DNA from: Ectothiorhodospiraceae bacterium
GTDB lineage: Bacteria > Pseudomonadota > Gammaproteobacteria > Nitrococcales > Aquisalimonadaceae
DNA length: 32,675 bases
Direction of reading: 5' to 3'
NCBI GenBank assembly: GCA_007125985.1
Contig: SLCE01000087.1
Span: forward strand, 1-32,675
Position numbers and translations under genes: made by a program. Below, in pieces: positions 2,565 through 14,083 of this stretch. Each line of letters opens with the position of its first letter. Positions within the stretch are counted from its first letter, which is position 1. The notes under the pieces were generated by a model. The model searched no databases. It was not told where the DNA came from and saw only the letters and a program-made list of their open reading frames with translations.

Positions 2565-2692
2565 GTCCGTCAATCCAGTCCTGGTATCCGCCATGCACTG
2601 GCGGCAGTCATCGATCTTGCGGACGGCATCCTTGGCACACTGCCCCCTCGTCCGGGCCATCCCCTACGGACCGATTGCCCGACCACGTGCCG

Positions 2693-3538
2693 CTAGGCTT
2701 CGGCGGGTACCACGGTCTGTTCCTGATACCCGAGCCCGTCCACCTCCAGCCGGACCTGATCGCCGGGCCTGAGGAAGCGCGGCGGCTTCTGGCCCATGCC
2801 CACGCCGGCGGGCGTTCCGGTGCAGATGATGTCGCCCGGGTGCAGCGTCATGAAACGGCTGACATAGCTGACCAGATGCCGGACCGGAAAAATCATGTCA
2901 GCGGTGGTGCCGTCCTGGAACACCTCGCCATTCACCGCCGCGGTGAGCCTGAGCCCCTGGGCATTCGCAATCTCATCCGCCGTCACAAGCCAGGGCCCGA
3001 TGGGGGCGAAGCTGTCAGCACTCTTGCCCTTGACCCATTGCCCGCCCAATTCCAGCTGGTAGGCACGCTCGGAGACATCGTTGACAATGGTGTAGCCGAG
3101 CACATGATCCATGGCGGTCGCTTCGTCCACTCGCGTGGCCTTGCGTCCGATCACCACGCCCAGCTCCACTTCCCAGTCCAGCTTCTCGGACCCCGGGGGC
3201 AGCAGAATGGGGTCATAGGGGCCGGTGATGGCCGAGGTGGCCTTCATGAACATGATGGGCTGCGGCGGCGGTTCCGCACCGGACTCCCGCGCATGGTCCC
3301 GATAGTTGAGGCCGATTGCGATGAGTTTGCCCACCCCGGCAATGGGCGGACCGAAACCGTCCACCGTGCCCGCGGAAGGCAACCCGGCCAGGTTGGCCGC
3401 GGCAACGGTGGCGGTGACCCCGGGCAGCTTGTGGGCATGCAGATCGTCCACCAGTCCGGACAGGTCGTGGACGTTTCCGTCCCGGTCCAGGATCCCGGGC
3501 CGGGTTCTTTCACCCTGACGGTATCTGACGAGTCGCAC
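2693..3538 (-). CDS. Fumarylacetoacetate hydrolase (FAH) family protein
   Basis: The product has 281 residues when started at the GTG at 3538, which is preceded by a very strong ribosome site (GGAGGAGGATAACG). An in-frame ATG further upstream at 3610 has no such site. An N-terminal cap domain is followed by the FAH catalytic fold: IGLNYRDHA near residue 75, the metal-binding DWEVELGVVIG, NDVSERAYQ, GKSADSFAPIGPWLV and the C-terminal CTGTPAGVGMG. These are conserved in the 2-hydroxyhepta-2,4-diene-1,7-dioate isomerase, acylpyruvase and 2,4-diketo-3-deoxy-sugar hydrolase branch, which cleaves or isomerises beta-diketo acids with Mg or Mn. The exact substrate is undetermined. It starts 86 bases downstream of the photoreceptor stop, so it could be a weakly attached tenth gene of that operon or have its own promoter. 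None was convincing. Confidence 0.9.
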   Translation of the reverse strand: MRLVRYRQGERTRPGILDRDGNVHDLSGLVDDLHAHKLPGVTATVAAANLAGLPSAGTVDGFGPPIAGVGKLIAIGLNYRDHARESGAEPPPQPIMFMKATSAITGPYDPILLPPGSEKLDWEVELGVVIGRKATRVDEATAMDHVLGYTIVNDVSERAYQLELGGQWVKGKSADSFAPIGPWLVTADEIANAQGLRLTAAVNGEVFQDGTTADMIFPVRHLVSYVSRFMTLHPGDIICTGTPAGVGMGQKPPRFLRPGDQVRLEVDGLGYQEQTVVPAEA

Positions 3539-3624
3539 CGTTATCCTCCTCCTTCCATGCTTTGGGTTTTGTGGATTCACCATAGCAGGAAGACGGACCC
3601 GGAGGCGCATCTGAATGCATACAC

Positions 3625-4578
3625 CTAGCCCACAGCCTTATGCTCCGAACGCCAAGCCTTGAGCGACTCCACCATCTGCTCCAGCGGGTCGATAATCCGA
3701 ACCCGCTCCGGCGGACTGCGCAGCGCACGCAAGCCTGCACCACCAGCCCACAGGGCCACCGATGCGGGCAGCAGGTCACGCAATGCGGACAGGCCTTCCA
3801 CGGCCTGCGGCGCCGGATAGGCGGCGCTGAAGGATAATGCGACCACGTCCGCCTGGTGACGGTCCACCGCGGCAATGATTTCGGTCATGGGCATCTGCGT
3901 GCCGAACGAACGCACCTCTGCACCGTGCAGCGTCAGCACCGTCTGGACCATTAGCAGCCCCAGGCTGTGCAGCTCGCCGGGTAATGTGGTCAGCACCACC
4001 CGGGGAGCCTCGGTGTGCTGGGGCAGACTTCCCATGGCCTGTCTCAGCACATTCTGCACCTGTTCGGTGTAGAGATGTTCCTGGAAAATACTGATCTGGC
4101 CATGCGCCCAGGCAACACCCACCGCCTGGTTGGCCTGCACCAGCGTTTCCATCACAAACCGTTGCAGCCCCTGCGAGGCCAGTTGGTGCTGCAGGTAATT
4201 GGCCATGGCCTGGGGCTGGCCCTCATGCAGCAGGCGCAGCAGTCGGTCATGACCGTCCAGGGCCGAGTCCGCTACGTGCTCAGCCAACAGCCGGCGCAGG
4301 GCCTCGGGGTCCAGGCGCACCACGCGACCGGGCCGCAGGCCCTCATCCACCAGTCGTTTCACCAACCGCAACTGCTCCACCTGTTCCGGTGGATAGAGCC
4401 GGTCGCCACTGCTGTCACGCCAGGGCCTGGGAAAGCCGTAACGGCGCTCCCACACGCGCAGCACATCCTTGGACAGCCCGGTCTCCCTTTCCACGGTACC
4501 GATGGACAGACCGCCTTCGCCGGTAACAGTCATGTGCGCGCCAGGTCCTTGTGTTGTTGTTGACCCGTTCTTATCCAT
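3625..4578 (-). CDS. MerR-type B12-dependent photoreceptor regulator (CarH/LitR family)
   Basis: A 317-residue protein. Residues 25-70 form a MerR winged helix (SIGTVERETGLSKDVLRVWERRYGFPR). Residues ~90-185 form a helical bundle carrying the Wx9EH signature of CarH (W157, E167, H168). The C-terminus is a Rossmann cobalamin-binding domain with GELHSLG, whose H204 matches the lower axial ligand (H177 in Thermus CarH). In that family, adenosylcobalamin holds a DNA-bound repressor tetramer in the dark, and light cleaves the Co-C bond and frees the promoter. Thermus H132, the ligand formed after light, is Ala158 here, with His159 next to it. It is the last gene of a nine-gene coupled operon whose promoter carries GTACAAAA repeats, suggesting autoregulation. 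The ATG at 4578 overlaps the preceding gene by 8 bases and follows GGGGAAGGGC. An alternative ATG lies at 4533. Confidence 0.88.
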   Translation of the reverse strand: MDKNGSTTTQGPGAHMTVTGEGGLSIGTVERETGLSKDVLRVWERRYGFPRPWRDSSGDRLYPPEQVEQLRLVKRLVDEGLRPGRVVRLDPEALRRLLAEHVADSALDGHDRLLRLLHEGQPQAMANYLQHQLASQGLQRFVMETLVQANQAVGVAWAHGQISIFQEHLYTEQVQNVLRQAMGSLPQHTEAPRVVLTTLPGELHSLGLLMVQTVLTLHGAEVRSFGTQMPMTEIIAAVDRHQADVVALSFSAAYPAPQAVEGLSALRDLLPASVALWAGGAGLRALRSPPERVRIIDPLEQMVESLKAWRSEHKAVG

Positions 4579-5008
4579 GCCCTTCCCCTGCCTTGCCGAT
4601 GCGCTTGCGGATCATGCGCAGCAACGCGCCCAGCATCGGTAACTTCTCGTACAGTTCCTCGGCGGCATCCCAGTAATCGCGGTGACGGACCACCAGACCT
4701 TCGGCATTGAAACCGAAATGTGTGGAACCGTGGATGCACCATTCCTTGCCACGAAAGCGGAAACGGAAATCCCAGATCAGCACAGCCTGATCGTGATCCA
4801 CGATCTGTTGCAGGATCTTGAACCGTGGCTCTTGCAGATTGCGGAACATTTCCCGGTACACGTCCATTAGCCGGTCCCGCCCACACAACTCGTGAAACGG
4901 ATCCTTGAACCACGCATCCTCCGCGTACAGCTCCTTCAGTGCCCCGAGCGTGTCCGGCCCCAGCCCCTGGTAATAGGCGACCAGCGTATGCACGACATCG
5001 CGGTTCAT
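4571..5008 (-). CDS. NTF2-like (SnoaL-type) nuclear transport factor 2 family protein
   Basis: A small 145-residue alpha+beta protein. VVHTLVAYYQGLGPDTLGALKELYAEDAWFKDPFHE is the usual N-terminal helix pair and cone of NTF2/SnoaL folds. It is followed by GRDRLMDVYREMFRNLQEPRFKI and a curved sheet (AVLIWDFRFRFRGKEWCIHGSTHFGF). The charged C-terminal tail (MLRMIRKRIGKAG) is peripheral. The family includes isomerases, cyclases and non-catalytic binding proteins, so no reaction can be assigned. The start at 5008 overlaps the TGA of the SDR in an ATGA arrangement, so it is probably translationally coupled. A GTG/ATG start further upstream would run inside the SDR. Similar small NTF2-like genes accompany SDR/CFA/DUF1365 clusters, so a role in the same lipid or stress pathway is inferred from context only. 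Confidence 0.8.
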   Translation of the reverse strand: MNRDVVHTLVAYYQGLGPDTLGALKELYAEDAWFKDPFHELCGRDRLMDVYREMFRNLQEPRFKILQQIVDHDQAVLIWDFRFRFRGKEWCIHGSTHFGFNAEGLVVRHRDYWDAAEELYEKLPMLGALLRMIRKRIGKAGEGHG

Positions 5009-5772
5009 GCGCCCGTCCCCCGCCGCACCAGCGGCAGATACAGCCAATAGGGCAGAATCCGCAGCAGTTTCAACGGCCAGATCAGGCGCTTGGGGAACGC
5101 GATTTCGAAGCGGCCACGCTCAATGCCGCGGAGAATCCGCTCGGCCGCCGCCTCGGGCTCCATCAGGCCCGGCATGGGAAAGGTGTTGCGCTCAGTAAGC
5201 GGCGTACGCACGAAGCCCGGGTTGACCAGGTGCACGTTCACGCCCCGGGGCACCAGGTCCAGGTACAGCACCTCCGCCAGATTGATCAGCGCCGCCTTGG
5301 TGGGCCCATAGGTCAAGGCCTGCGGCAGACCGCGATAACCCGCCACGCTGGAAACCAGCGCCACGCCACCGCCATCCCGCAACAGCCCCGGCAGCAGGCA
5401 GGCCAGGCCGTTGGTGACGCCCACGACATTGGTCTCCATTGTGCTGCGGGCTTCCGCCGCATCCAGCTCCCAGGCCCGGGTCGGGCGCCAGCTCGCCGCC
5501 AGGAACACCACCAGATCGATACCGCCCCAGGCCGCCAGCACACGGTCCCGCGCCTGCACCCAGGCATCCGCGTCGGTCACGTCCAGCGGCATGGCCAGCG
5601 CCTGTGCACCATGCCGCTGGACGAAGGCGTCCAGGGGCTCTGCGCGGCGCGCACTGACCGCCACCCGGGCACCACGACGGATCAGGACCTCTGCCAGGGC
5701 AGCGCCGATACCGCTGCTGGCGCCGGTGAGCCAGACCCGCAGCCCACGCCAATCACTGATTCGGCGATTCAT
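5005..5772 (-). CDS. Short-chain dehydrogenase/reductase (SDR), probable membrane-associated
   Basis: A 255-residue classical SDR. The nucleotide-binding motif TGASSGIG is at residues 16-23, and DVTDADAW follows at the usual position. The catalytic set is S142, Y155 and K159 (in SSVAGYRG and YGPTK). The usual NNAG motif is replaced by VFLAAS, and the substrate loop starts at NPGFVRTPLT. The C-terminus carries a basic-hydrophobic segment (FPKRLIWPLKLLRILPYWLYLPLV) that may sit on the membrane, which fits a lipid or other hydrophobic substrate. Family members reduce or oxidise carbonyl/alcohol groups with NAD(P)H. Both ends overlap neighbouring genes in ATGA arrangements, placing it inside the coupled photoreceptor operon. 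An SDR next to a DUF3833 lipoprotein, a GPH transporter and a chalcone-isomerase-like protein recurs in stress-lipid clusters. Confidence 0.88.
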   Translation of the reverse strand: MNRRISDWRGLRVWLTGASSGIGAALAEVLIRRGARVAVSARRAEPLDAFVQRHGAQALAMPLDVTDADAWVQARDRVLAAWGGIDLVVFLAASWRPTRAWELDAAEARSTMETNVVGVTNGLACLLPGLLRDGGGVALVSSVAGYRGLPQALTYGPTKAALINLAEVLYLDLVPRGVNVHLVNPGFVRTPLTERNTFPMPGLMEPEAAAERILRGIERGRFEIAFPKRLIWPLKLLRILPYWLYLPLVRRGTGA

Positions 5773-6323
5773 CGGGCTGGCGACTCCCCGTTACCGGAGT
5801 CCACCCGCTGGAACTGCACCGTCACATGCCCAAAGGTGATGCCGTACCAGCTCATCCGGGCCCGGTTGATCAATGTGTCCTCGTCCACCAAGTGCATCCA
5901 GTCATCCATGGAGACGTTGAACGTACGCCCGCCAATGGGCTGCATCAGCGTGTAGCGCAGCCGCATGGCATTGCCGGCCACTTCGGCCTTACCGACACCG
6001 GCCACATCCGCCGCGCGGGCGTTGTAGGTGCCATCCGGCAGTCGGCGCAGCGTCCACACCCGCCGATCCGTGGTGCCGTCGTCGTAATAGAACTTCTCAT
6101 CCAGCGTACCCACGTTGCCTTCCCACCAGGCATCGATGGTGACCACGAAGCGCCGCTGTACCCGGCCGAAGCGGTCCACAAACAGACCATGAGCAATCAG
6201 TTCGCCGTCAAAGTATTCCTCCAGCACCAGTTCCGGGGAATCATCCCGGTAGTCCTCCACGCTGACCGAGGCGCAACCAACGAGCAGCAGAGACAACAAC
6301 AGCACGAGGACCAGGCGGTTCAT
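5769..6323 (-). CDS. DUF3833 family lipoprotein
   Basis: A 184-residue protein beginning MNRLVLVLLLSLLLVGC. This is a type II signal with lipobox LLVGC, so the mature protein starts at Cys17 or 18 and is lipid-anchored in the envelope. Asp is absent at +2 (Cys-Ala-Ser), which favours outer-membrane sorting. The mature part matches the DUF3833 pattern: a short N-terminal acidic segment, EYFDGELIAHGLFVDRFGRVQRRF, then TLDEKFYYDDGTTDRRVW and WMHLVDEDTLINRARMSWYGITFG. The fold is expected to be a beta-barrel/lipocalin-like sheet, and its function is unknown. The start at 6323 forms an ATGA overlap with the transporter stop. A longer frame back to 6374 lacks a signal peptide and was rejected. Its own stop overlaps the SDR start the same way. 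Confidence 0.85.
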   Translation of the reverse strand: MNRLVLVLLLSLLLVGCASVSVEDYRDDSPELVLEEYFDGELIAHGLFVDRFGRVQRRFVVTIDAWWEGNVGTLDEKFYYDDGTTDRRVWTLRRLPDGTYNARAADVAGVGKAEVAGNAMRLRYTLMQPIGGRTFNVSMDDWMHLVDEDTLINRARMSWYGITFGHVTVQFQRVDSGNGESPAR

Positions 6324-7576
6324 GGCGTGACTCCTTGAGTCGACAGAGAGGGAGCCGGAGCGTGCCAGCGCCAAAGCGCCAGTGCGGCCAGCAGTTTGAG
6401 TACACAGGGCAACAGGGCGTAAACGGCGGCCAGCGTCACCAGCCCCTGCTGTGCCCCGGGCGAGTAACCCAGCACCTGCAACAGCGGCAGACTGAGGCCC
6501 GCGGCCAGTGCCAGACTGAGTTTGCCCAGCAACGTCCAGAGGCCGAAGTAGCTACCCGTGGCGCGGGCGGGCGCAATACCGGCCAGCAGCACCGGAGGCA
6601 GCGCCAGGTCCGCGCCCAGCGCCAGACCACTGAGCAGGCAGATGATCAGAAAGGGCAGCACGTCGCCTTCACCCAGGGTGAACGCCCAGGCGAAGGCGCC
6701 GATGGCCATCAGCATGCCGCTCAGCCAGGCGTGGCGAACACCCACCCGGCGGCCCAGACGCACCCAGAGGGGCATCCCCACCACGCCGGCGAGGAAATAG
6801 GCCACCAGGAAGGGGCCTGCCAGGGCCGGCCGCTGCAGCACACCTTCCACGTAAAAGAGAAACAGCGTGGCCGGTATCGCCGCCGCCGTGCCATTCAGAA
6901 GAAAGATCACGGCCAGGCGCCGAAAGGCGGGATCGCGCACCGCCGGCCACCAGGAATCCGCCCCTTCAGGCCTCAGCTGCCGGACCACCGGCGTTGCCAA
7001 CAGCGTGATCAGGGCCGCGCCGAACAGCAGCAGGACAAAAGCACCGCTGAACAGGCCCATGGCTGTGGTCGCGGGCAGCCATAGCACGAGCACGGGCGGC
7101 ACCATGGCCGCCAGCATCACACCGACCAGGGAGAATGCCTCGCGGGTTGCCGTGATCCGGGTACGCCCCGCCGCATCAGATGCCAGCTCGGCCCCCCAGG
7201 CGTGGTAGGGAATGGTGATCAGACTGTAGCCGCTGTAGGCCAGCAGCAATGCGCACGACATCCAGAGGGCTACGCCCGCTGTCGCAAACGGAGGCGGATT
7301 GAACAGGGCGATAAAGCCCAACGCCAGGGCAGGCACCCCCAGCGCCATCATGCCGCGACGCCCCAGGCGGCCACGATCACTCCAGGCGCCGAACAAAGGG
7401 TCCTGCACCGCATCCACAACCCGCGCGCCCAGCAGCAACACCCCGATCAACGCCAGCGACAGGGTGGTTTCATCCGCATAGAACTTCGGCGCCAGAACAT
7501 AAACCGGTAACGCGGCCATGGTCAGCGGCAGCGAGATGGCGGCATACGCCAGTAGGCCTCGCCGGTTCAGGCTCAC
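6320..7576 (-). CDS. MFS transporter of the GPH (Na+/melibiose-like) family
   Basis: A 418-residue polytopic membrane protein with about 12 hydrophobic helices. Family features include GARVVDAVQDPLFGAWSDR in the first cytoplasmic loop, the GPH version of the MFS signature (D-x-x-x-D-P-x-x-G-x-x-S-D). PYHAWGAELASDAAGRTRI matches the WGAEL/RTR motif of the central region, and GADLALPPVLLAGI appears in the second half. GPH carriers classically co-import sugars with cations, but members in this kind of operon have no demonstrated substrate, and a lipid or lipid precursor is possible. The start is a GTG at 7576 overlapping the preceding TGA (GTGA), so it depends on coupling. It sits between the chalcone-isomerase-like and DUF3833 genes. 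Confidence 0.87.
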   Translation of the reverse strand: MSLNRRGLLAYAAISLPLTMAALPVYVLAPKFYADETTLSLALIGVLLLGARVVDAVQDPLFGAWSDRGRLGRRGMMALGVPALALGFIALFNPPPFATAGVALWMSCALLLAYSGYSLITIPYHAWGAELASDAAGRTRITATREAFSLVGVMLAAMVPPVLVLWLPATTAMGLFSGAFVLLLFGAALITLLATPVVRQLRPEGADSWWPAVRDPAFRRLAVIFLLNGTAAAIPATLFLFYVEGVLQRPALAGPFLVAYFLAGVVGMPLWVRLGRRVGVRHAWLSGMLMAIGAFAWAFTLGEGDVLPFLIICLLSGLALGADLALPPVLLAGIAPARATGSYFGLWTLLGKLSLALAAGLSLPLLQVLGYSPGAQQGLVTLAAVYALLPCVLKLLAALALWRWHAPAPSLSTQGVTP

Positions 7577-8088
7577 CGTGAATCACCCAGCAAAGCCGAC
7601 CGCAGCCTGCCGTTCCGGGTGCGCTCATCCAGCCAGATGGCAAAAAACGCTTCAGCAAACCCGGCCTCGGTGACATGGCCGACCTGCTCATCATCGTGAT
7701 AGAACAGAACGCCACCATTCCCATCCGCCAACCCGGTGAGGCGTTCTCCGCTGCGCACGGAAGGGAACACCTCGCGCATGGCGCGCTCCCAGCGGCTGAC
7801 CTCCTCCGCCGCATAACCGAGCCGTTCCAGTTCCTTGGCACTGGCTGCGGAAAGCTGTTCACCGGTGAAATCCCGCCGGTAAACAATCTCCAAAGCAAAC
7901 GGGCGTTCCGGTGAGTAGCGACCTTCCGGCGCCCAGAGGGTTGCCTGATACACATTGAAACCAAACCAGCGCAGATCCCCCTGCCCCACCGTCTCCATCT
8001 CTGGAAAGCGGTGTTCCACCGGATCCGGCAACGCCAATGTCTGGGCGGCCAGCAGACAACCCGCAATGCAGACCATCAACCTAATCAC
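7573..8088 (-). CDS. Chalcone-isomerase-like periplasmic protein
   Basis: A 171-residue exported protein. The GTG at 8088 was chosen because GGAGG lies at the right distance upstream. The ATG at 8076 is too far from it, and longer frames lack a signal. A Sec signal peptide (VIRLMVCIAGCLLAAQTLALP) precedes a chalcone-isomerase-like domain. That domain has HRFPEMETVGQGDLRWFGFNVYQATLW, ALEIVYRRDFTGEQL, FPSVRSGERLTGL and the C-terminal FFAIWLDERTRNGRLRSALLG. Bacterial members do not make flavonoids. The fold is related to fatty-acid-binding proteins, so lipid binding is plausible but not shown. The start overlaps the methyltransferase stop by 8 bases. The stop overlaps the transporter start. Confidence 0.85.
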   Translation of the reverse strand: MIRLMVCIAGCLLAAQTLALPDPVEHRFPEMETVGQGDLRWFGFNVYQATLWAPEGRYSPERPFALEIVYRRDFTGEQLSAASAKELERLGYAAEEVSRWERAMREVFPSVRSGERLTGLADGNGGVLFYHDDEQVGHVTEAGFAEAFFAIWLDERTRNGRLRSALLGDSR

Positions 8089-9295
8089 GCCACACCTCCA
8101 ACTGGACAACATCAGTACGGCCATGCCGGAAACCGGCTTCGCAATAGGCCAGATAGAACCGCCAGAGCCGCTGGAACGGTTCATCGAGGCCGAGTTGGCC
8201 CACCTCGGCAAGACGGGTATCGAAACGCTCGCGCCACAGGCGCAACGTGCGGGCGTAGTCCAACCCGAAGGAGAAACGCTCGGACTCGCGGAGGCCGGCA
8301 TGGCTCACCAGTTGGGTCAGCCCGGTGGGGGGCGGCAGCATGCCGCCGGGGAAGATGTACTGCTGAATGAAATCACTGCCGCCCCGGTAGCGGGCGAAGT
8401 GCGTATCGTCCACCGTGATGGTCTGCACGATGGCGCCGCCACCGGGGCGCAGACGCTCCCGCAGCAGCCGGAAATAGTCGGACCAGTAGCGCTCGCCCAC
8501 CGCCTCCAGCATTTCAATGGACACGACGCGATCGTAGCTGCCGCTGTGATCGCGGTAGTCGCACAACTCGAAATTCACCTGCGCGTCCAGCCCCAGCAGC
8601 GCCACCCGTTCCCGACTGGCCGCCAACTGTTCCCGGGACAGTGTCAGGCCCGTGACCTTGCAACCTCGGGTGCGCGCGGCATATGTGGCAAAGCCGCCCC
8701 AGCCGCAGCCGATCTCCAGCACATGGTGCTCCGTCCCGACGTGCAGACGTTCCAGGATTCGCTCGTACTTGGCGATCTGGGCTTGCTCCAATGACTCCGT
8801 TCCGTCGGAGAACAGCGCAGAGGAATAGGTCATGGTGGAATCGAGCCAGAGCGCATAGAACTCGTTACCGATGTCATAGTGCGCGGAGATGTTGCGCTTG
8901 CTCCCCCGCCGGGTATTCGCCCGCCGCAGATGACGCAGACGGAACAGCAAGCGCGACCACCAGCGCCCGTGGATGGCGGTATGCAGCGCGGCCTCGTTGC
9001 GCAGCGCCAGTAGCAGCAGATCCGACAGATCCGACGCTTGCCAGCGGCCCGCCATGTAGGTTTCGGCACACCCCACATCCCCGCGGGAAAGCATGGTGCC
9101 GCAGACATCCCAATCGAACAGGCTGATGCTCACCGAGGGGCCGGACTCGCTGCCCTCGAACACCAACTGTTCACCATCCGGCGTGGTCAGCTCCAGGATG
9201 CCTGCATGCAAACGCTCCAGCATCTTCAGCATCACGCGGGCCGCGGACGGAACCGATTCCCGGCGCTCCGCGCCGACATCACTGATAAACCGCAT
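8081..9295 (-). CDS. Cyclopropane-fatty-acyl-phospholipid synthase-like SAM methyltransferase
   Basis: A 404-residue soluble enzyme. An N-terminal lipid-binding domain (residues 1-125) precedes a class I SAM methyltransferase with HYDIGNEFY (139-147), TMTYSSALF, the SAM loop LEIGCGWGG (193-201), GLTLSREQL and MLEAVGERYW (catalytic Glu264, E239 in E. coli Cfa). The C-terminus has FIQQYIFPGGMLP and the conserved LDYARTL Tyr. Two bicarbonate-site residues of E. coli Cfa differ: Cys139 is Ser, and His266 of LHTIG is Gln291. That makes a plain cyclopropane synthase less certain. A methyltransferase forming methyl-branched unsaturated chains (UfaM type, the first step to furan fatty acids) is an alternative. 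Substrates would be unsaturated acyl chains of membrane phospholipids plus SAM. The start overlaps the DUF1365 stop (TAATG). Confidence 0.9.
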   Translation of the reverse strand: MRFISDVGAERRESVPSAARVMLKMLERLHAGILELTTPDGEQLVFEGSESGPSVSISLFDWDVCGTMLSRGDVGCAETYMAGRWQASDLSDLLLLALRNEAALHTAIHGRWWSRLLFRLRHLRRANTRRGSKRNISAHYDIGNEFYALWLDSTMTYSSALFSDGTESLEQAQIAKYERILERLHVGTEHHVLEIGCGWGGFATYAARTRGCKVTGLTLSREQLAASRERVALLGLDAQVNFELCDYRDHSGSYDRVVSIEMLEAVGERYWSDYFRLLRERLRPGGGAIVQTITVDDTHFARYRGGSDFIQQYIFPGGMLPPPTGLTQLVSHAGLRESERFSFGLDYARTLRLWRERFDTRLAEVGQLGLDEPFQRLWRFYLAYCEAGFRHGRTDVVQLEVWRD

Positions 9296-10053
9296 TAGCG
9301 AACCTCCTCATGCGGGTGCGTCTCCGGCTGCTTGCCGTAAAACGGCACCTTCTTCATCCATAGGCGCAGAGCCTGGTAGTGGATACGAACCCACACCATC
9401 AGCGTAAACCAGCCATGACGCCCCACAGCGGCGGCAAGCGCCCTTCCCGTTAGCGGCGTGGTTTGCATGGTGAGGCCGGTACGCAACACTTCACCCTCGC
9501 CATCGTCATAGCGGATTTCCGCGACGCCGCCGTCCACGTCAAAACGGAAAGCATAGCCGCCCTCAACACGGAAGAAGGGGGATACATGCAGCGCCTTGTC
9601 CGCATGCAGCCAGTCCCCGGCCGCGATCGGGCGCCCGTCGGGATGTGCTACCAGGTATTGCCGGTGACCGCCGAAGGTGTTGTGCACATCGCAAAGCACA
9701 GCCCGTAGCTCCCCTGCGCGGTCATGGCAGAACCAGAAGCTGATGGGGTTGAAGCTGTAACCCAGCATCCGCGGCATGGTCTGGAGCCACACATCACCAT
9801 CCACATGCCCCAGGCCATGGGACTGGAGAAGCGCCCGGACCCAGGGCAGCAGGGGGGAGCCGTCCCTGGGCCCGTAATCCCGCTGCTGCAGGCTGATGAA
9901 CCCGGGACGGTCCACCCGGAGCAGCGATCGCTCGCCGGACTCGAGCCGGTGCAACGGCACCCGCACCTGAAGCAGCGGATAAACGAACGCGTGCCGCCGC
10001 GGCCGTAACCGCACATGCCAGACGCGCCCGCGCAGCAGATGCACGGTCATCAT
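9295..10053 (-). CDS. DUF1365 family protein
   Basis: A 252-residue protein with the family's hallmarks: HLLRGRVWHVRLRPRRHAFVYPL at the N-terminus, RVDRPGFISLQQRDYG, TMPRMLGYSFNPISFWFCHD in the middle, LCDVHNTFGGHRQYLV, ADKALHVSPFF and the C-terminal TLMVWVRIHYQALRLWMKKVPFYGKQP. Two start codons lie in tandem (ATGATG at 10053 and 10050). The first overlaps the FAD-protein TGA and is chosen. Biochemical function is unproven. The gene is almost always beside a CFA-like methyltransferase and an FAD-linked amine-oxidase-fold protein, so a step in modifying phospholipid acyl chains is the usual inference. I recall this trio within light- and singlet-oxygen-induced regulons and near the furan fatty acid genes, but cannot assign a ufa symbol. 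Confidence 0.88.
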   Translation of the reverse strand: MMTVHLLRGRVWHVRLRPRRHAFVYPLLQVRVPLHRLESGERSLLRVDRPGFISLQQRDYGPRDGSPLLPWVRALLQSHGLGHVDGDVWLQTMPRMLGYSFNPISFWFCHDRAGELRAVLCDVHNTFGGHRQYLVAHPDGRPIAAGDWLHADKALHVSPFFRVEGGYAFRFDVDGGVAEIRYDDGEGEVLRTGLTMQTTPLTGRALAAAVGRHGWFTLMVWVRIHYQALRLWMKKVPFYGKQPETHPHEEVR

Positions 10054-11321
10054 GCCGCTGCCCGTTCCTGCCAGGTGACCCGCGCGTCCAACGCCGTGGC
10101 CACCGCCAGCGCGGAGTTGAAGCCGTCCTCGTGAAATCCGTATCCGGTCCAGGCACCGGCAAACCAGGTACCGCGTCGGCCCTGGATGGTGGGCAGTGCC
10201 CGCTGGGCCCACCGGGCCGGGCCGTCCAGCAAGGGATGGGCGTAATCAAACGCGGCCAGGGTCTTCGCGTCATCCGGTTCCCTGTGAGGGTTCAGCGTGA
10301 CCATCACGGGCTGCTTGAACGGCAACGGCTGCAGGCGATTCAGCAAATAGGTGACCGCCACCGGCTGGCCGTCGGGACGGGCGAGACCGGAAGAGAAGTT
10401 CCAGGCCGACCACGCCAACTTGCGTCGCGGCAAAAAGCTCTGATCGGTGTGCAGCACGGCCCGATTCGGCTGGTAGCGAACCGCCCCTAGGATCCGCGCC
10501 TCGTCGGCATCCGCGTCGCCGAGCAGTGCCAGGGACTGATCGCTGTGACAAGCCATCACAATGGCGTCGAACCAGTCCTCGCCATCCGCACTCACCACAC
10601 GGACTCCCCGACCCAGGCGCTCCACCCGGTGTACCGGTGTGTTCAGACGAATGTCACCGATGCTCATGGCCATCCGCTCCACGTAGGTGCGGGCGCCCCC
10701 GGCCACCGTACGCCAGCGCGGCCGGTCGGAGATCTGCAACAGACCATGGTTGTGACAGAAGCTGAGGAAGGAATGCGCCGGGAAATCCAGCATCGCGCCA
10801 GTGGGCGATGACCAGATCGCCGCGCCCATCGGCAACAGATACCAATCACGGAATGCTTGCCCGTAGCGGTGCTGCTCCAGCAAATCGCCCAGACTCTGAT
10901 CCGTGCCCGCCGTCTCCTCAAGCAAGCGCGGCGCCGCCGCATTGAAGCGCAGAATATCCCGCAGCATGCCCAGAAACCGGGGACGGACCAGGTTTGTCGG
11001 CTGGGCAAACACCGTGGCCAGATTGCTACCAGCCCACTCCAAACCCTCGGATTCGAGTTGCACGCTGAAGCTCATATCCGACTCCACCGTGCGCACCCCC
11101 AAGGTGGCGAACAGGCTGATGAGATTGGGATACGTGCGGTCATTATGAACCAGGAAGCCGGTATCCACCGGCGCCATGGCACCGTCCAGTGTGACATCCA
11201 CCGTATTGGTGTGGCCGCCCAGGTAGTTCCCGGCTTCATACAGCGTGACCTGATGGTGCGGGCTCAGCAGCCAGCCGGCACCCAGCCCTGAAATTCCCGA
11301 ACCAACAATTGCAATTTTCAT
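10050..11321 (-). CDS. NAD(P)/FAD-dependent oxidoreductase, amine-oxidase fold
   Basis: A 423-residue flavoprotein. The ADP-binding GSGISGLGAGWLL is at residues 7-19, followed by the GG motif YLGGHTNTVDV. A middle substrate domain includes VDTGFLVHNDRTYPN and MLDFPAHSFLSFCHNHGLL. The C-terminal FAD site is GTWFAGAWTGYGFHEDGFNSALAVA. It belongs to the predicted flavoproteins that accompany CFA-like methyltransferases and DUF1365. In Rhodobacter a desaturase (UfaD) working on methylated acyl chains is part of furan fatty acid synthesis, and I believe it comes from this flavoprotein group, though this is recollection. It is the first gene of the nine-gene operon. Its ATG at 11321 follows AGGACAAAAT and lies ~26 bases after the predicted transcription start. 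Confidence 0.9.
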   Translation of the reverse strand: MKIAIVGSGISGLGAGWLLSPHHQVTLYEAGNYLGGHTNTVDVTLDGAMAPVDTGFLVHNDRTYPNLISLFATLGVRTVESDMSFSVQLESEGLEWAGSNLATVFAQPTNLVRPRFLGMLRDILRFNAAAPRLLEETAGTDQSLGDLLEQHRYGQAFRDWYLLPMGAAIWSSPTGAMLDFPAHSFLSFCHNHGLLQISDRPRWRTVAGGARTYVERMAMSIGDIRLNTPVHRVERLGRGVRVVSADGEDWFDAIVMACHSDQSLALLGDADADEARILGAVRYQPNRAVLHTDQSFLPRRKLAWSAWNFSSGLARPDGQPVAVTYLLNRLQPLPFKQPVMVTLNPHREPDDAKTLAAFDYAHPLLDGPARWAQRALPTIQGRRGTWFAGAWTGYGFHEDGFNSALAVATALDARVTWQERAAA

Positions 11322-11324
11322 ATT

Positions 11325-11353
11325 TTGTCCTAGACATAATTTGTCCTGGACAA
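11325..11353 (-). promoter_or_regulatory. Twin TTGTCC palindromes over transcription start and leader
   Basis: Plus-strand TTGTCCTGGACAA (11341-11353) is a perfect 6-bp inverted repeat around one base. TTGTCCTAGACAT (11325-11337) is an imperfect copy 16 bases away. The first covers the predicted transcription start. The second includes the AGGA ribosome-binding site of the FAD gene. They differ from the GTACAAAA direct repeats, so they may be operators for a second regulator or a leader structure. Confidence 0.45.
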
Positions 11354-11405
11354 AATGTATGCCTCCCTGAAAGCTTCGTCAAGAATTTTTGTACAACTTT
11401 TGTAC
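11354..11405 (-). promoter_or_regulatory. Promoter with CarH-like direct repeats for the nine-gene operon
   Basis: On the minus strand TTGACG (11382-11377) and TACATT (11359-11354) are separated by 17 bases, a good sigma70 promoter, with transcription expected near 11347. Just upstream are two direct copies of GTACAAAA (11405-11398 and 11394-11387) exactly 11 bases apart. A degenerate third position in the same phase falls on the -35 element. Thermus CarH is known to bind tandem 11-bp direct repeats that overlap the -35. The match in period and position suggests the operon's own photoreceptor (3625-4578) represses here in the dark. Confidence 0.72.
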
Positions 11406-11437
11406 CATGCATAACACGTTGGCTTTTCAGCTCCTTC

Positions 11438-11613
11438 TGCTGCGCTTCGCGTTCGGCTCGGAGCACCCTCCGGGGGCGGGGCTCGGGGCCGCGTGGCGGT
11501 TGGTTGGTGCTGGACGGACGTAGCGTGCCCTGAGCGCAGCGAAACGCACCGTGAGAGGGACGGCTGCGGTCCTTTTGGTGCGCTTCGCTTTCGGTCCAGA
11601 GCACCCTACGGGC
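11438..11613. repeat. Cluster of three REP-like elements
   Basis: Three related ~36-base units occupy most of the gap between the FAD and metallo-beta-lactamase-fold genes. Copies lie at 11438-11474 and 11577-11613 (+), both with GCGCTTCGC, TTCGG, GAGCACCCT and CGGG. An inverted copy lies at 11518-11552; its reverse complement has GGTGCGTTTCGCT, GGGCACGCTACG. The inverted middle unit is typical of REP/BIME clusters, which sit between genes and can stop transcription or protect mRNA ends. There is no gene in 11410-11641. Confidence 0.65.
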
Positions 11614-11641
11614 CTTTCCGATCGGGAGGGGCGTTGCGCCG

Positions 11642-12448
11642 TCAGGCTGTTGCGCGTTCGCCGCTCAGCAGGCGCTCCATGGTCAGCGCATTCGGCATGG
11701 TGGCTGGGCCTTGGGCATGCATGCCCGCCACATAGCCCAGCAGGTTCTCGGTGATACCGCGGGCGGCGGGCAGATGGCTGGACAGCACAACCGTCGGCGC
11801 GAGCCGGCGCACAGCATCCAGACTGTGCGCCAGGAACCGCTCATCCAGCTGGCTCAACCAGGGCGCGTCGATACCAGCCCAGGCCATCAGCCCGTCCCGC
11901 AGTTGGGACGCCGGGATTGCCGCCGCGTCCTCAGCGGGCTGGCCCAGCAGCGCACCAAAGGCATCGGCCGTGAAAAGCCCGGAGGAGGAAGTGTCATAGA
12001 ACCCCAGCGTCTCCGGCGCGTCATAGTACGGCGGACTCAGGGGAACGAGCTCGCGGTCGGGTAGCTGCAGACCTGAACCGGGCTCCAGGACGCGCACCCG
12101 GTCCACCGGCAGCCCCGCCAGCATCATCTTCCCCATGCCCAGGAAGTTCGTCACCACCCGGGCATTCGGCGCCTTCTCCAGCACCGACAGCAGATTCCCC
12201 ACATGATCCGCATCCATGTGGCTAAGCCAGACCCAGGCAAGATCCTTTGGGTCAATCAGTGCCTCCAGTGTCTCCATGAACGGCTCTCCGAGAGCAGCGA
12301 GACCGGTGTCCACCAGCACGGGCTCAGGGCCGCGAATCAGATAGGCGTTCACTGCCAGGATGCCCAGACCTGGCACAGGCATGCAGGACGGCAACTCATA
12401 GAAATCGGCGGCAATCTTGCGTGCCGCAAACAGGCTTGGCGTGTTCAT
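11642..12448 (-). CDS. Metallo-beta-lactamase-fold protein, flavodiiron/ODP-like
   Basis: A 268-residue protein with an MBL fold: NAYLIRGPEPVLVDTGL (strand and first Asp), the metal motif H77-M-D-A-D81-H82, then GLFTADAFG (D162) and LSSHLPAARG (H225). The H-x-D/E-x-D-H pattern with DAFG downstream is closer to the diiron MBL domain of flavodiiron proteins and bacterial oxygen sensor ODP than to zinc hydrolases (HxHxDH). The family's third His is not seen (Tyr-Tyr at 141-142). No flavodoxin domain follows. A redox, oxygen- or NO-related role is possible, while hydrolase activity cannot be excluded. GGAG lies 7 bases before the ATG. It is transcribed divergently from a TetR regulator, with shared operator-like repeats, and is probably its target. 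Confidence 0.82.
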   Translation of the reverse strand: MNTPSLFAARKIAADFYELPSCMPVPGLGILAVNAYLIRGPEPVLVDTGLAALGEPFMETLEALIDPKDLAWVWLSHMDADHVGNLLSVLEKAPNARVVTNFLGMGKMMLAGLPVDRVRVLEPGSGLQLPDRELVPLSPPYYDAPETLGFYDTSSSGLFTADAFGALLGQPAEDAAAIPASQLRDGLMAWAGIDAPWLSQLDERFLAHSLDAVRRLAPTVVLSSHLPAARGITENLLGYVAGMHAQGPATMPNALTMERLLSGERATA

Positions 12449-12478
12449 CAGGAATCTCCATGGCTTTGCTGGGAACTT

Positions 12479-12502
12479 TCATTGAACATGGATGATCAAT
12501 GA
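12479..12502 (-). promoter_or_regulatory. Operator-like inverted repeat in the leader of the MBL-fold gene
   Basis: TCATTGA (12479-12485) and TCAATGA (12496-12502) form a 7-bp inverted repeat around 10 bases. It lies just downstream of the predicted start of transcription for the MBL-fold gene (near 12505). The half-sites match those of the operator at 12544-12567, but in everted order. Confidence 0.5.
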
Positions 12503-12511
12503 ATATATGAA

Positions 12512-12539
12512 GCTATAGCCCACCAGAACGGCTTGTCAA
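12512..12539 (-). promoter_or_regulatory. Promoter of the MBL-fold gene
   Basis: On the minus strand TTGACA (12539-12534) and TATAGC (12517-12512) are 16 bases apart. This gives a predicted start near 12505 and a ~56-base leader that contains the TCATTGA repeats. Confidence 0.6.
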
Positions 12540-12567
12540 TATTTCAATAAACAAATATGTTCATTGA
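12533..12567 (+). promoter_or_regulatory. tetR promoter with 24-bp operator
   Basis: TTGTCA (12533-12538) and TATGTT (12556-12561), 17 bases apart, give a predicted start at about 12568. A strong palindrome covers the -10: TCAATAAACA (12544-12553), 4-base spacer, TGTTCATTGA (12558-12567), 9 of 10 pairs matching. Its size and symmetry suit a TetR dimer, so autorepression is inferred. Confidence 0.62.
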
Positions 12568-12568
12568 T

Positions 12569-13177
12569 ATGGGAAAACGTAAGTACAAGATGAGAAAACG
12601 GGCGGAATCACAGCAGGCCACCCGGGCACGCATCGTGGAAGCCCTGATAGAACTGCACGAGGAGTTGGGCCCGAGACAGACCACGGTCAGCGCCATTGCC
12701 GAGCGCGCGGGGGTACAACGGCTAACCGTCTACCGCCATTTCCCCGATGAGGCAGAACTTTTCCAGGCCTGCAGCTCCCGCTGGCGGGAACTGAACCCAC
12801 CACCGGATCCGGGCACCTGGGCGCACCAGCACGACGGACTAGAGCGCTGTCGGACCGCACTCCGGGCGCTTTACGCCTATTACCGTGGCACTGCCGGCAT
12901 GTGGGCCGCGTTGCTGCGGGATGAAACCAGTGTTCCGGCGTTACAGGGCCCGATGCGGGATTTCAGAGGCTATCTGACCGGGATCGCAGAGGATCTTGTA
13001 CAGGCCCTGCTCCCTCCTGCCGAACACCACCTGCCGACCGCGGCCACCACATCGCATGTGCTGCAATTCGAAACCTGGGCATCGCTGTCCGCGCAGGGCT
13101 TGAGCGACACCGAGGCGGCGGATCTGGCAACAGCCTGGGTTTCATCCACCGCATCAGCCGCCTTAAGGAAACACTGA
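12569..13177 (+). CDS. TetR/AcrR family regulator, divergent from the MBL-fold gene
   Basis: A 202-residue regulator. The basic arm KRKYKMRKRAESQQ leads into a TetR helix-turn-helix: TRARIVEALIELHEELGPRQTTVSAIAERAGVQRLTVYRHFPDEAELF. A helical ligand-binding domain follows (ALRALYAYYRGTAGMWAALLRDE). Start choice: the ATG at 12557 lies within the predicted -10 and operator. The ATG at 12569 keeps the family-like basic arm and falls directly after the predicted transcription start, implying a leaderless message. The ATG at 12590 is a third option. No start has a good ribosome site. The last codons (about LRKH) lie inside a 61-bp dispersed repeat, so the original C-terminus may have been replaced. 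The ligand is unknown. Confidence 0.85.
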   Translation: MGKRKYKMRKRAESQQATRARIVEALIELHEELGPRQTTVSAIAERAGVQRLTVYRHFPDEAELFQACSSRWRELNPPPDPGTWAHQHDGLERCRTALRALYAYYRGTAGMWAALLRDETSVPALQGPMRDFRGYLTGIAEDLVQALLPPAEHHLPTAATTSHVLQFETWASLSAQGLSDTEAADLATAWVSSTASAALRKH

Positions 13178-13226
13178 TCTATTCCCATGGTCCTCTGGCT
13201 TTGCAGCGTGTTTGGGGGCAAGGCGC
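13165..13226 (+). repeat. Dispersed repeat, copy 1
   Basis: This 62-base segment (GATCTATTCCCATGG, CTCTGGCTTTGCAGCGTGTT, GGGCAAGGCGC) is almost identical to the reverse complement of 16170-16230, with about five substitutions and one indel. It begins inside the last codons of the upstream tetR gene and runs into the intergenic region. It has no coding role. It looks like a scattered intergenic repeat or a MITE end. Confidence 0.75.
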
Positions 13227-13443
13227 GGCTCGCAGGCAATGGCCAGCCCTTGCCAAAAGCCGCAACGTAGAACCCGGACACGCCGCAAAGCCCCGCCGGG
13301 CGGGCCATTCGCGTACGCTGAACGGCATTGGCGTTCTTGCCAAGGGCGACGCGAACGCCGGCACGCGGGCAAGCGGTCCTGAGTTCCCGTGGTCACGGGC
13401 TGCTACATGTCCTCGCAACTCCGCTGTCGCGCCGCCGACTCTG
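13227..13443. other. Non-coding spacer following dispersed repeat
   Basis: I see no supportable gene here. Short frames on both strands have no ribosome site or recognisable domain. There is a small perfect inverted repeat, CCCGTG/CACGGG (13386-13399). Part of this stretch may be a longer version of the repeat at 13165, but no second full-length copy is present to prove it. Confidence 0.5.
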
Positions 13444-13493
13444 TTGACAGTCAGAAATTCCGGTCTAATCTTCTGATTAGACCGGTCGGTTTA
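13444..13493 (+). promoter_or_regulatory. Promoter and double operator of the AcuR/NemR-like regulator
   Basis: TTGACA (13444-13449) and TAATCT (13466-13471) form a promoter with a 16-base spacer. A perfect 11-bp inverted repeat (CCGGTCTAATC at 13460-13470, GATTAGACCGG at 13475-13485, 4-base spacer) covers the -10. An overlapping second palindrome, TAGACCG/CGGTTTA (13478-13493), resembles the TAGACC-GGTCTA boxes of NemR/AcuR-type repressors. Autorepression is expected. Confidence 0.72.
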
Positions 13494-13501
13494 GAGGGCT
13501 A

Positions 13502-14083
13502 ATGACTACCAAATCAACGCGAGAACGCTTGCTGGACGTGGGCCTGGAACTGCTCCTGCAACGCGGATACAACGACCTCGGCATCCAGGCGCTGCTGGAC
13601 GCATCCGGTGCGCCGAGGGGCTCGTTCTACCATCACTTCCGGAGCAAGGAGGATTTCGCTCTTCAGGTGATTGACCGCTACATGGTCGAGGTCCATCAGG
13701 GCCTGGATATGGCCCTCGGTGACGAATCACTTCCAACCCTGGATCGTGTGCGGCGTTTTTTCGAGATCAGTCAGGACAAATACGGACGGGACGGTTACCT
13801 GGGCTGCATGCTTGGCGGGCTTGGTCAGGAACTCTCGGGTGTCAGCGACGTGTTCAGGAAGAAGATCGAATGGTGTTTTTCCGAGATCGTGGAGCGCATC
13901 GCAGGCTGCCTGGACATGGCACGCCAACGGGGCGAATTACCCGCGGACACGGACACCCGCTACATGGCCAACCTGTTGCTGAATTGTTGGGAAGGAGCCG
14001 CGCTCCGCAGCCGCCTGCTCCGGGACCCCGCACCCTTGGAGGCAATGCTGGATTTCTATTTTTCCGCGGCGAAGACGGCGTGA
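13502..14083 (+). CDS. TetR family regulator, AcuR/NemR-like
   Basis: A 193-residue regulator with N-terminal helix-turn-helix: TRERLLDVGLELLLQRGYNDLGIQALLDASGAPRGSFYHHFRSKEDFALQVIDRY. The signature GYLGCMLGGLGQELSGVSDVFRKK in the ligand domain carries the conserved Cys seen in the AcuR/NemR group. Those regulators respond to acrylate or to electrophiles such as N-ethylmaleimide and methylglyoxal. The C-terminal part (YMANLLLNCWEGAALRSRLLRDPAPLEAMLDFYF) fits the TetR_C domain of that group. GAGGG lies close to the ATG. Two overlapping palindromes in its promoter match the group's operators. The natural target is unclear: the only downstream frame is a remnant of an FAD-linked oxidase, 136 bases away. 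Confidence 0.88.
   Translation: MTTKSTRERLLDVGLELLLQRGYNDLGIQALLDASGAPRGSFYHHFRSKEDFALQVIDRYMVEVHQGLDMALGDESLPTLDRVRRFFEISQDKYGRDGYLGCMLGGLGQELSGVSDVFRKKIEWCFSEIVERIAGCLDMARQRGELPADTDTRYMANLLLNCWEGAALRSRLLRDPAPLEAMLDFYFSAAKTA

Follow-up and report, generated by a model that had tools for sequence, protein, structure and literature searches.

What might a B12-type photoreceptor control from the last position of a nine-gene operon? This question is raised by a window of 32,675 nucleotides from an Ectothiorhodospiraceae bacterium (GCA_007125985.1, contig SLCE01000087.1, positions 1-32,675, forward strand), the window being the whole stretch of DNA that was analysed. The reading that we favor, with a probability of about 0.64, is that the locus is an operon for furan fatty acids, induced by light and repressed by CarH, a B12 photoreceptor of its own, and that the operon would feed back on itself. 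The original prediction had also put genes for furan fatty acids into one operon with a B12 photoreceptor of the CarH type, and this core is supported by our analysis. Beyond the anatomy of the DNA, each step of the mechanism draws on homology, and AdoCbl binding, the light response, the furan product and the roles of the accessory genes are the parts that we infer.

Nine ORFs run along the minus strand of the window from 11321 to 3625, and the overlaps at the eight junctions are, in order, 4, 1, 8, 4, 4, 4, 4 and 8 bp. The predicted nine-gene coupled operon is therefore borne out, all eight junctions overlapping by 1-8 bp, with the last one depending on the start chosen for carH. Two of the start codons are choices, namely GTG 8088 for the Chalcone_3 gene and ATG 4578 for carH; CarH homologues align from M16 (ATG 4533), and with this start the last junction would be a 37-bp gap rather than an 8-bp overlap. 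For all nine genes Pfam agrees with the families assigned previously: Amino_oxidase, DUF1365, CMAS, Chalcone_3, MFS_2, DUF3833, adh_short, SnoaL_2 and, in the last product, MerR with B12-binding_2 and B12-binding. The proposed span of 3625-11347 needs adjustment, since the genes occupy 3625-11321 within it but the control sequences reach about 11396. The gene order is kept in a congener, G002, and in a family member, G012, which lacks the DUF3833 gene.

The first three genes are those from which the furan product is predicted. In R. sphaeroides, UfaM, UfaD and UfaO act in turn on 18:1 to yield a methylated furan fatty acid, and UfaO is a DUF1365 protein (PMC7380195). In the window, ufaD (10050..11321, minus strand; 423 aa; Pfam Amino_oxidase, 3e-18) encodes a putative FAD-dependent acyl desaturase with the position and family of UfaD/RSP1091 (PMC7380195), and its product is 90% identical in G002 and 65% in G012. 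It is followed by ufaO (9295..10053, minus strand; 252 aa; DUF1365, 1.6e-69), which overlaps ufaD by 4 bp and encodes a UfaO-like monooxygenase, and by ufaM (8081..9295, minus strand; 404 aa; CMAS, 4e-81), which encodes a UfaM-like SAM methyltransferase. The FAD desaturase, the DUF1365 protein and the CMAS-type methyltransferase together make up the full pathway set, as assigned by family; the predicted fold of UfaO gave no significant match in the PDB.

We found that UfaM scored 278 of 600 and 251 of 400 bits against the NCBIfam CFA synthase models, under their cut-offs, and that relative to the CFA synthase 5z9o a Cys is changed to Ser, one His to Ala and another His to Gln. Such Cys and His residues hold bicarbonate in CFA synthase. 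The UfaM lineage keeps the change, with Glu-Met-x-Glu-Ala-Val-Gly in 74/74 sequences and Gln for His in 71/74. UfaM was therefore rejected as a true cyclopropane fatty acid synthase, on the grounds of the replaced Cys and His and of the curated scores. A related alternative, that the CarH-controlled operon makes a different modified acyl chain (methyl-branched or cyclopropane, for example) instead of a furan, seems to us unlikely: UfaM does belong to the CMAS family, and the three further genes of the R. sphaeroides RSP1091-1087 operon (RSP1089-1087) are dispensable for furan fatty acid (PMC7380195), so that the accessory genes may do other chemistry, but the UfaD-, UfaO- and UfaM-type genes found together are the full set needed, and the methyltransferase is without the CFA synthase Cys and His across its lineage.

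The furan-fatty-acid reading leaves five genes between ufaM and carH, all on the minus strand. They encode a chalcone isomerase-like protein that is likely exported (7573..8088; 171 aa; Chalcone_3, 5e-10; 8-bp overlap from its GTG start), an MFS_2/GPH-like transporter (6320..7576; 418 aa; MFS_2, 4e-60; GTGA overlap), a DUF3833 lipoprotein (5769..6323; 184 aa; DUF3833, 5e-61), a short-chain dehydrogenase (SDR; 5005..5772; 255 aa; adh_short, 4e-38; ATGA overlap) and a SnoaL/NTF2-like protein (4571..5008; 145 aa; SnoaL_2, 4e-16; ATGA overlap). The DUF3833 lipoprotein has a near-invariant lipobox Cys17, and its predicted fold is a ten-strand barrel (pLDDT 91) with lipocalin- and nitrobindin-like ligand binders as its nearest relatives; the predicted barrel would fit lipid handling, although it proves nothing.

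The last gene (3625..4578, its start maybe at 4533; minus strand) encodes the putative CarH/LitR photoreceptor-repressor, in which Pfam recognises a MerR HTH followed by four-helix and Rossmann B12 domains. The MerR, B12-binding_2 and B12-binding matches are all above the Pfam cut-off (E 2.8e-10 for the B12 Rossmann domain), and the presence of the Rossmann domain led us to reject an assignment to class II LitR. The protein matches the PDB CarH 5c8d with an E of 2e-30, the Thermus CarH alignment covers most of its length, and it is 72% identical in G002 and 58% in G012. CarH homologues are defined by the motifs Wx9EH and ExHxxG together (PMC8156234). The first, the cap motif, is intact as W157-x9-E167-H168, as it is in all readable homologues. 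The second, E202xH204xxG207-x41-S-x-S-x27-GG, agrees with ExHx2Gx41Sx(V/T)x22-27GG except for Ser at the V/T position, where Ser is also found in 74/78 homologues, and the Glu at the ExHxxG position is shared with Thermus CarH. No His directly follows the Trp, a feature common to the branch, and a bis-His bond like that in the light state of Thermus CarH is thus not expected. The best-named match was the NCBIfam TransRegCarH equivalog, at 138.6 bits against a naming threshold of 400, which indicates a divergent CarH-type branch rather than an equivalog of the modelled subgroup.

These motifs bear directly on the possibility that CarH represses without a direct need for B12 or light, in the manner of myxococcal CarA or class II LitR, and that some other light or stress sensor relieves the repression. 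There are precedents for such an arrangement, as Pseudomonas LitRs control similar genes via a short LOV protein and without B12 (PMC9758184), and CarA binds B12 without needing it (PMC8156234). We nevertheless regard it as rather improbable here, because Wx9EH, whose loss largely explains the B12 independence of CarA (PMC8156234), is retained, along with ExHxxG, in this protein and in its readable homologues, and because both B12 domains are recognised by Pfam, unlike in class II LitR.

A consensus scan of 2600-11700 gave a single sigma-70-like site on the minus strand, directly upstream of ufaD (putative promoter TTGACG-17-TACATT, 11354..11382), and two weak terminator-like sites on the same strand. 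Since the counts of both kinds of site in the scan are at chance level, the promoter call rests on position and on conservation in two relatives, G002 and G012, where the -35/-10 elements stand at the same place with the same 17-bp spacing and are followed by the same kind of sites. These are copies of the palindrome TTGTCCWGGACAA, located between the promoter and the ufaD start codon. Putative operator 1, TTGTCCAGGACAA (11341..11353; 13/13), is the sole exact site in the genome, and putative operator 2, ATGTCTAGGACAA (11325..11337; 12/13), is 16 bp from operator 1 and ends 3 bp before the start codon. With up to one mismatch allowed, the motif occurs in the window's genome at operators 1 and 2 only; exact copies in G002 and in G012 are likewise unique to the promoter of this operon, and none was found in G001, a congener without the operon. 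Upstream of the -35 element, a TTGTACAA palindrome (11389..11396), which resembles the LitR TGTACA half-site and is also present in G002, is a possible auxiliary site, and AGTTGTACA is the sole match in this promoter to the CarH consensus AnnTnnACA (PMC8156234). The stretch that separates the operon promoter from the next gene also holds a 43-bp direct repeat, 84% identical (window 11432-11474 and 11570-11612), which may be an intergenic repeat of the dispersed kind.

When 84,980 species genomes were scanned with the alignment of CarH, 80 loci were returned, mostly from Betaproteobacteria. The motif was derived from the window and then counted in the other genomes, the G012 record being left out, and it was present upstream of carH in 73/79 loci. 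There were 129 sites in the 33 kb that precede carH and 26 in the other 1.27 Mb, an enrichment of 190 times over background; the loci having been chosen by likeness to this CarH, the association is one measured within its kin and not across all CarH proteins. Shuffled and reversed palindromes gave zero sites upstream of carH in the 79 loci. The B12-light control proposed originally is strengthened by this conservation, together with the intact CarH motifs. The distances between paired operators were most often 63 bp (23), 74 bp (10) and 64 bp (7), near six and seven helical turns. G012 has a 63-bp pair, whereas the sites are 16 bp apart in the window and 15 bp apart in G002, indicating a different site arrangement in the window branch. 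In locus L082 the genes carH and ufaD are not divergent, and ufaD has a 63-bp operator pair upstream of it.

The same sites were also seen before other genes. In Massilia sp. IC2-477 (L060, NZ_JAJFEQ010000017.1), a photoactive yellow protein gene (E 3e-52 to PDB 2kx6) situated about 3.3 kb from carH is closely preceded by two operators 72 bp apart (6660-6744), and one photoreceptor is possibly controlling another there. In L063 (5779-5853) and L088 (9387-9472) it is a glutathione peroxidase gene that has an operator pair in front of it. L063, a Porticoccus MAG, has two carH-like genes on one contig with operators before both, and an operator pair is common to its glutathione peroxidase gene and to the second, divergent carH-like gene. 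Across the 80 loci, a glutathione peroxidase gene is found within 3 kb of carH in 37, and FolE2 in 29. That operator-linked targets serve to sense light and to remove lipid peroxides is consistent with a response to photo-oxidation.

That CarH serves mainly as a sensor of cobalamin status, with repression at high and expression at low AdoCbl and light in a secondary role, is very improbable: AdoCbl-free CarH binds DNA poorly (PMC8156234), so that low B12 alone would derepress, and a genome search found no BtuR-type adenosyltransferase, but a PduO-type adenosyltransferase is present in the genome, the placing of the operator before photoactive yellow protein and glutathione peroxidase genes elsewhere fits light or peroxide stress better, and the window has neither a B12 riboswitch nor a BtuB above cut-off. 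A TonB-dependent receptor gene at 504-2660 was rejected as a B12 receptor, its product being far under the BtuB cut-offs and closest to PqqU models, whose cut-off it also fails to reach.

The gene set had been implied to be singular, and this did not hold, since the eight-gene module beside carH is widespread. Of the 38 loci that extend 9 kb or more to each side of carH, ufaD, ufaO and ufaM adjoin carH in 33, and all eight genes occur in the same order in 25. In the module loci, mostly from Betaproteobacteria, carH is divergent in nearly every case; only in the window, G002 and G012 was it seen to close the operon. Two of the three plasmid carH relatives examined, from Eleftheria and Comamonas, have no ufa genes beside carH, so that carH and ufa are not inseparable.

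In a concatenated UfaD-O-M tree, the window, G002 and G012 (support 1.0) group with the carH-linked beta type, apart from 12 further clusters, drawn from the family and order, which group on their own. Of these 12, five are linked to a photolyase and to a MerR gene without B12 motifs, and such a MerR-photolyase pair is present in the window's genome without ufa genes. Horizontal gain of the window's ufa cluster, replacing an older one, is likely on this tree, in which deep support ranges from 0.2 to 0.89 and the loci are CarH-selected. A difference in flanks between the congeners was rejected, because FAA hydrolase, metallo-beta-lactamase (MBL) and TetR neighbours are common to the window and G002. 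Upstream of the operon, the window carries a metallo-beta-lactamase-fold gene and divergent TetR-like genes (11642-14083), which are kept there in G002.

The window's genome is 98.9% complete. In agreement with the reported lack of sigmaE-ChrR, a ChrR search of the genome found stand-alone cupins only, under the ChrR cut-off. Two short stand-alone Cupin_7 matches were rejected as ChrR, as they match only the cupin part of the model and fall under its cut-off, and a third (C28) does not reach the ChrR model. A photolyase is indeed lacking from the window, but the genome has one on contig C137 (locus L039, about 6000-8800), directly after a second LitR-like MerR gene. The C137 MerR protein is without Wx9EH and ExHxxG, and no TTGTCCWGGACAA or TGTACA-N12-TGTACA site was found around this MerR-photolyase pair. 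A phototrophy check of the genome found no reaction-centre gene.

Under the light-induced furan-fatty-acid reading, AdoCbl-loaded CarH would bind the TTGTCCWGGACAA sites between the -10 element and the ufaD start codon in the dark and block RNA polymerase, and in the light the Co-C bond of AdoCbl would break and CarH would release the DNA. One transcript would then give all nine proteins: UfaM would methylate 18:1, UfaD would desaturate the product and UfaO would insert oxygen to form the furan, while the Chalcone_3 protein, the DUF3833 barrel lipoprotein and the transporter may carry or export lipids, and the SDR and NTF2-like proteins would also be made. Furan fatty acids would enter the membrane, and fresh CarH would rebind once loaded with AdoCbl in the dark. 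Since carH is the last gene, light would also raise synthesis of the repressor, so that a fast shut-off would be expected in the dark.

A wider reading, which we hold tentatively and at slightly worse than even odds, is that a proteobacterial CarH branch uses helically phased TTGTCCWGGACAA pairs to place synthesis of furan fatty acids, a membrane ROS scavenger, under B12-light control, together with glutathione peroxidase, FolE2 and sometimes photoactive yellow protein. Such a system would be a light-anticipating replacement for the damage-sensing sigmaE-ChrR, and the window's family would have captured it horizontally and rewired the sensor as the last gene of the operon. If this is true, the phased pairs would be a new operator type, usable as a blue/green-light switch. 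Of the hundreds of CarH homologues known, those that have been characterised control carotenoid genes, and many B12 light sensors have previously been target-less; for a large proteobacterial branch both the DNA site and the target would now be defined, and light sensing by CarH and damage sensing by sigmaE-ChrR could be compared as two control logics for the same pathway.

Among individual systems, plasmid pAZKH of Azoarcus sp. KH32C (NC_020548.1) carries these eight genes too, in compact form and unchanged order, beside a MerR gene with 47% identity and with operator-like sites TTGTCCTAGACAA and TTGTTCAGGACAA in the intergenic stretch; there carH is divergent from ufaD, whereas in the window it is the last gene of the operon. 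The class I LitR proteins, CarH of Thermus thermophilus, Bacillus megaterium and Myxococcus xanthus, share the domain order, Wx9EH, ExHxxG and an operator that overlaps the promoter (PMC8156234). They differ in controlling carotenoid genes, not furan-fatty-acid genes, and in binding tandem 11-bp direct repeats, whereas the operators here are conserved 13-bp inverted repeats and the sensor has no His after the Trp. The predicted link to Rhodobacter proved correct, in that RSP1091-1087 includes ufaD and ufaO, with ufaM at RSP2144, core sigmaE-ChrR targets of the same UfaD, UfaO and UfaM gene types (PMC7380195, PMC6852236). RSP1089-1087 (402, 186 and 245 aa) resemble the transporter, DUF3833 protein and SDR here by size only. 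In Rhodobacter, however, the genes form two loci under singlet oxygen control via sigmaE-ChrR, and no full ChrR was found in the window's genome.

In the literature searched, which did not include two key J. Bacteriol. papers on the LitR classes, a link between CarH and furan fatty acids was found only in a Pseudomonas study, where ufaM of a LitR-associated polycistron was induced 25-33-fold by light (PMC9758184). The pmlR1-pplR1 cluster of Pseudomonas mendocina/putida, which pairs a class II LitR with a short LOV protein, is also a nine-gene light-induced polycistron of overlapping or close genes, contains LitR, ufaM, an FAD oxidoreductase and an SDR, and has repressor sites around a sigma-70 promoter (PMC9758184). 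Its LitR has no B12 Rossmann domain and is LOV-switched, whereas both B12 domains are present here; its operator is TGTACA-N12-TGTACA rather than TTGTCCWGGACAA, and phrB lies inside the cluster but not in the window's operon (PMC9758184). The operon of the window is a B12-type variant of this Pseudomonas LitR/ufaM operon.
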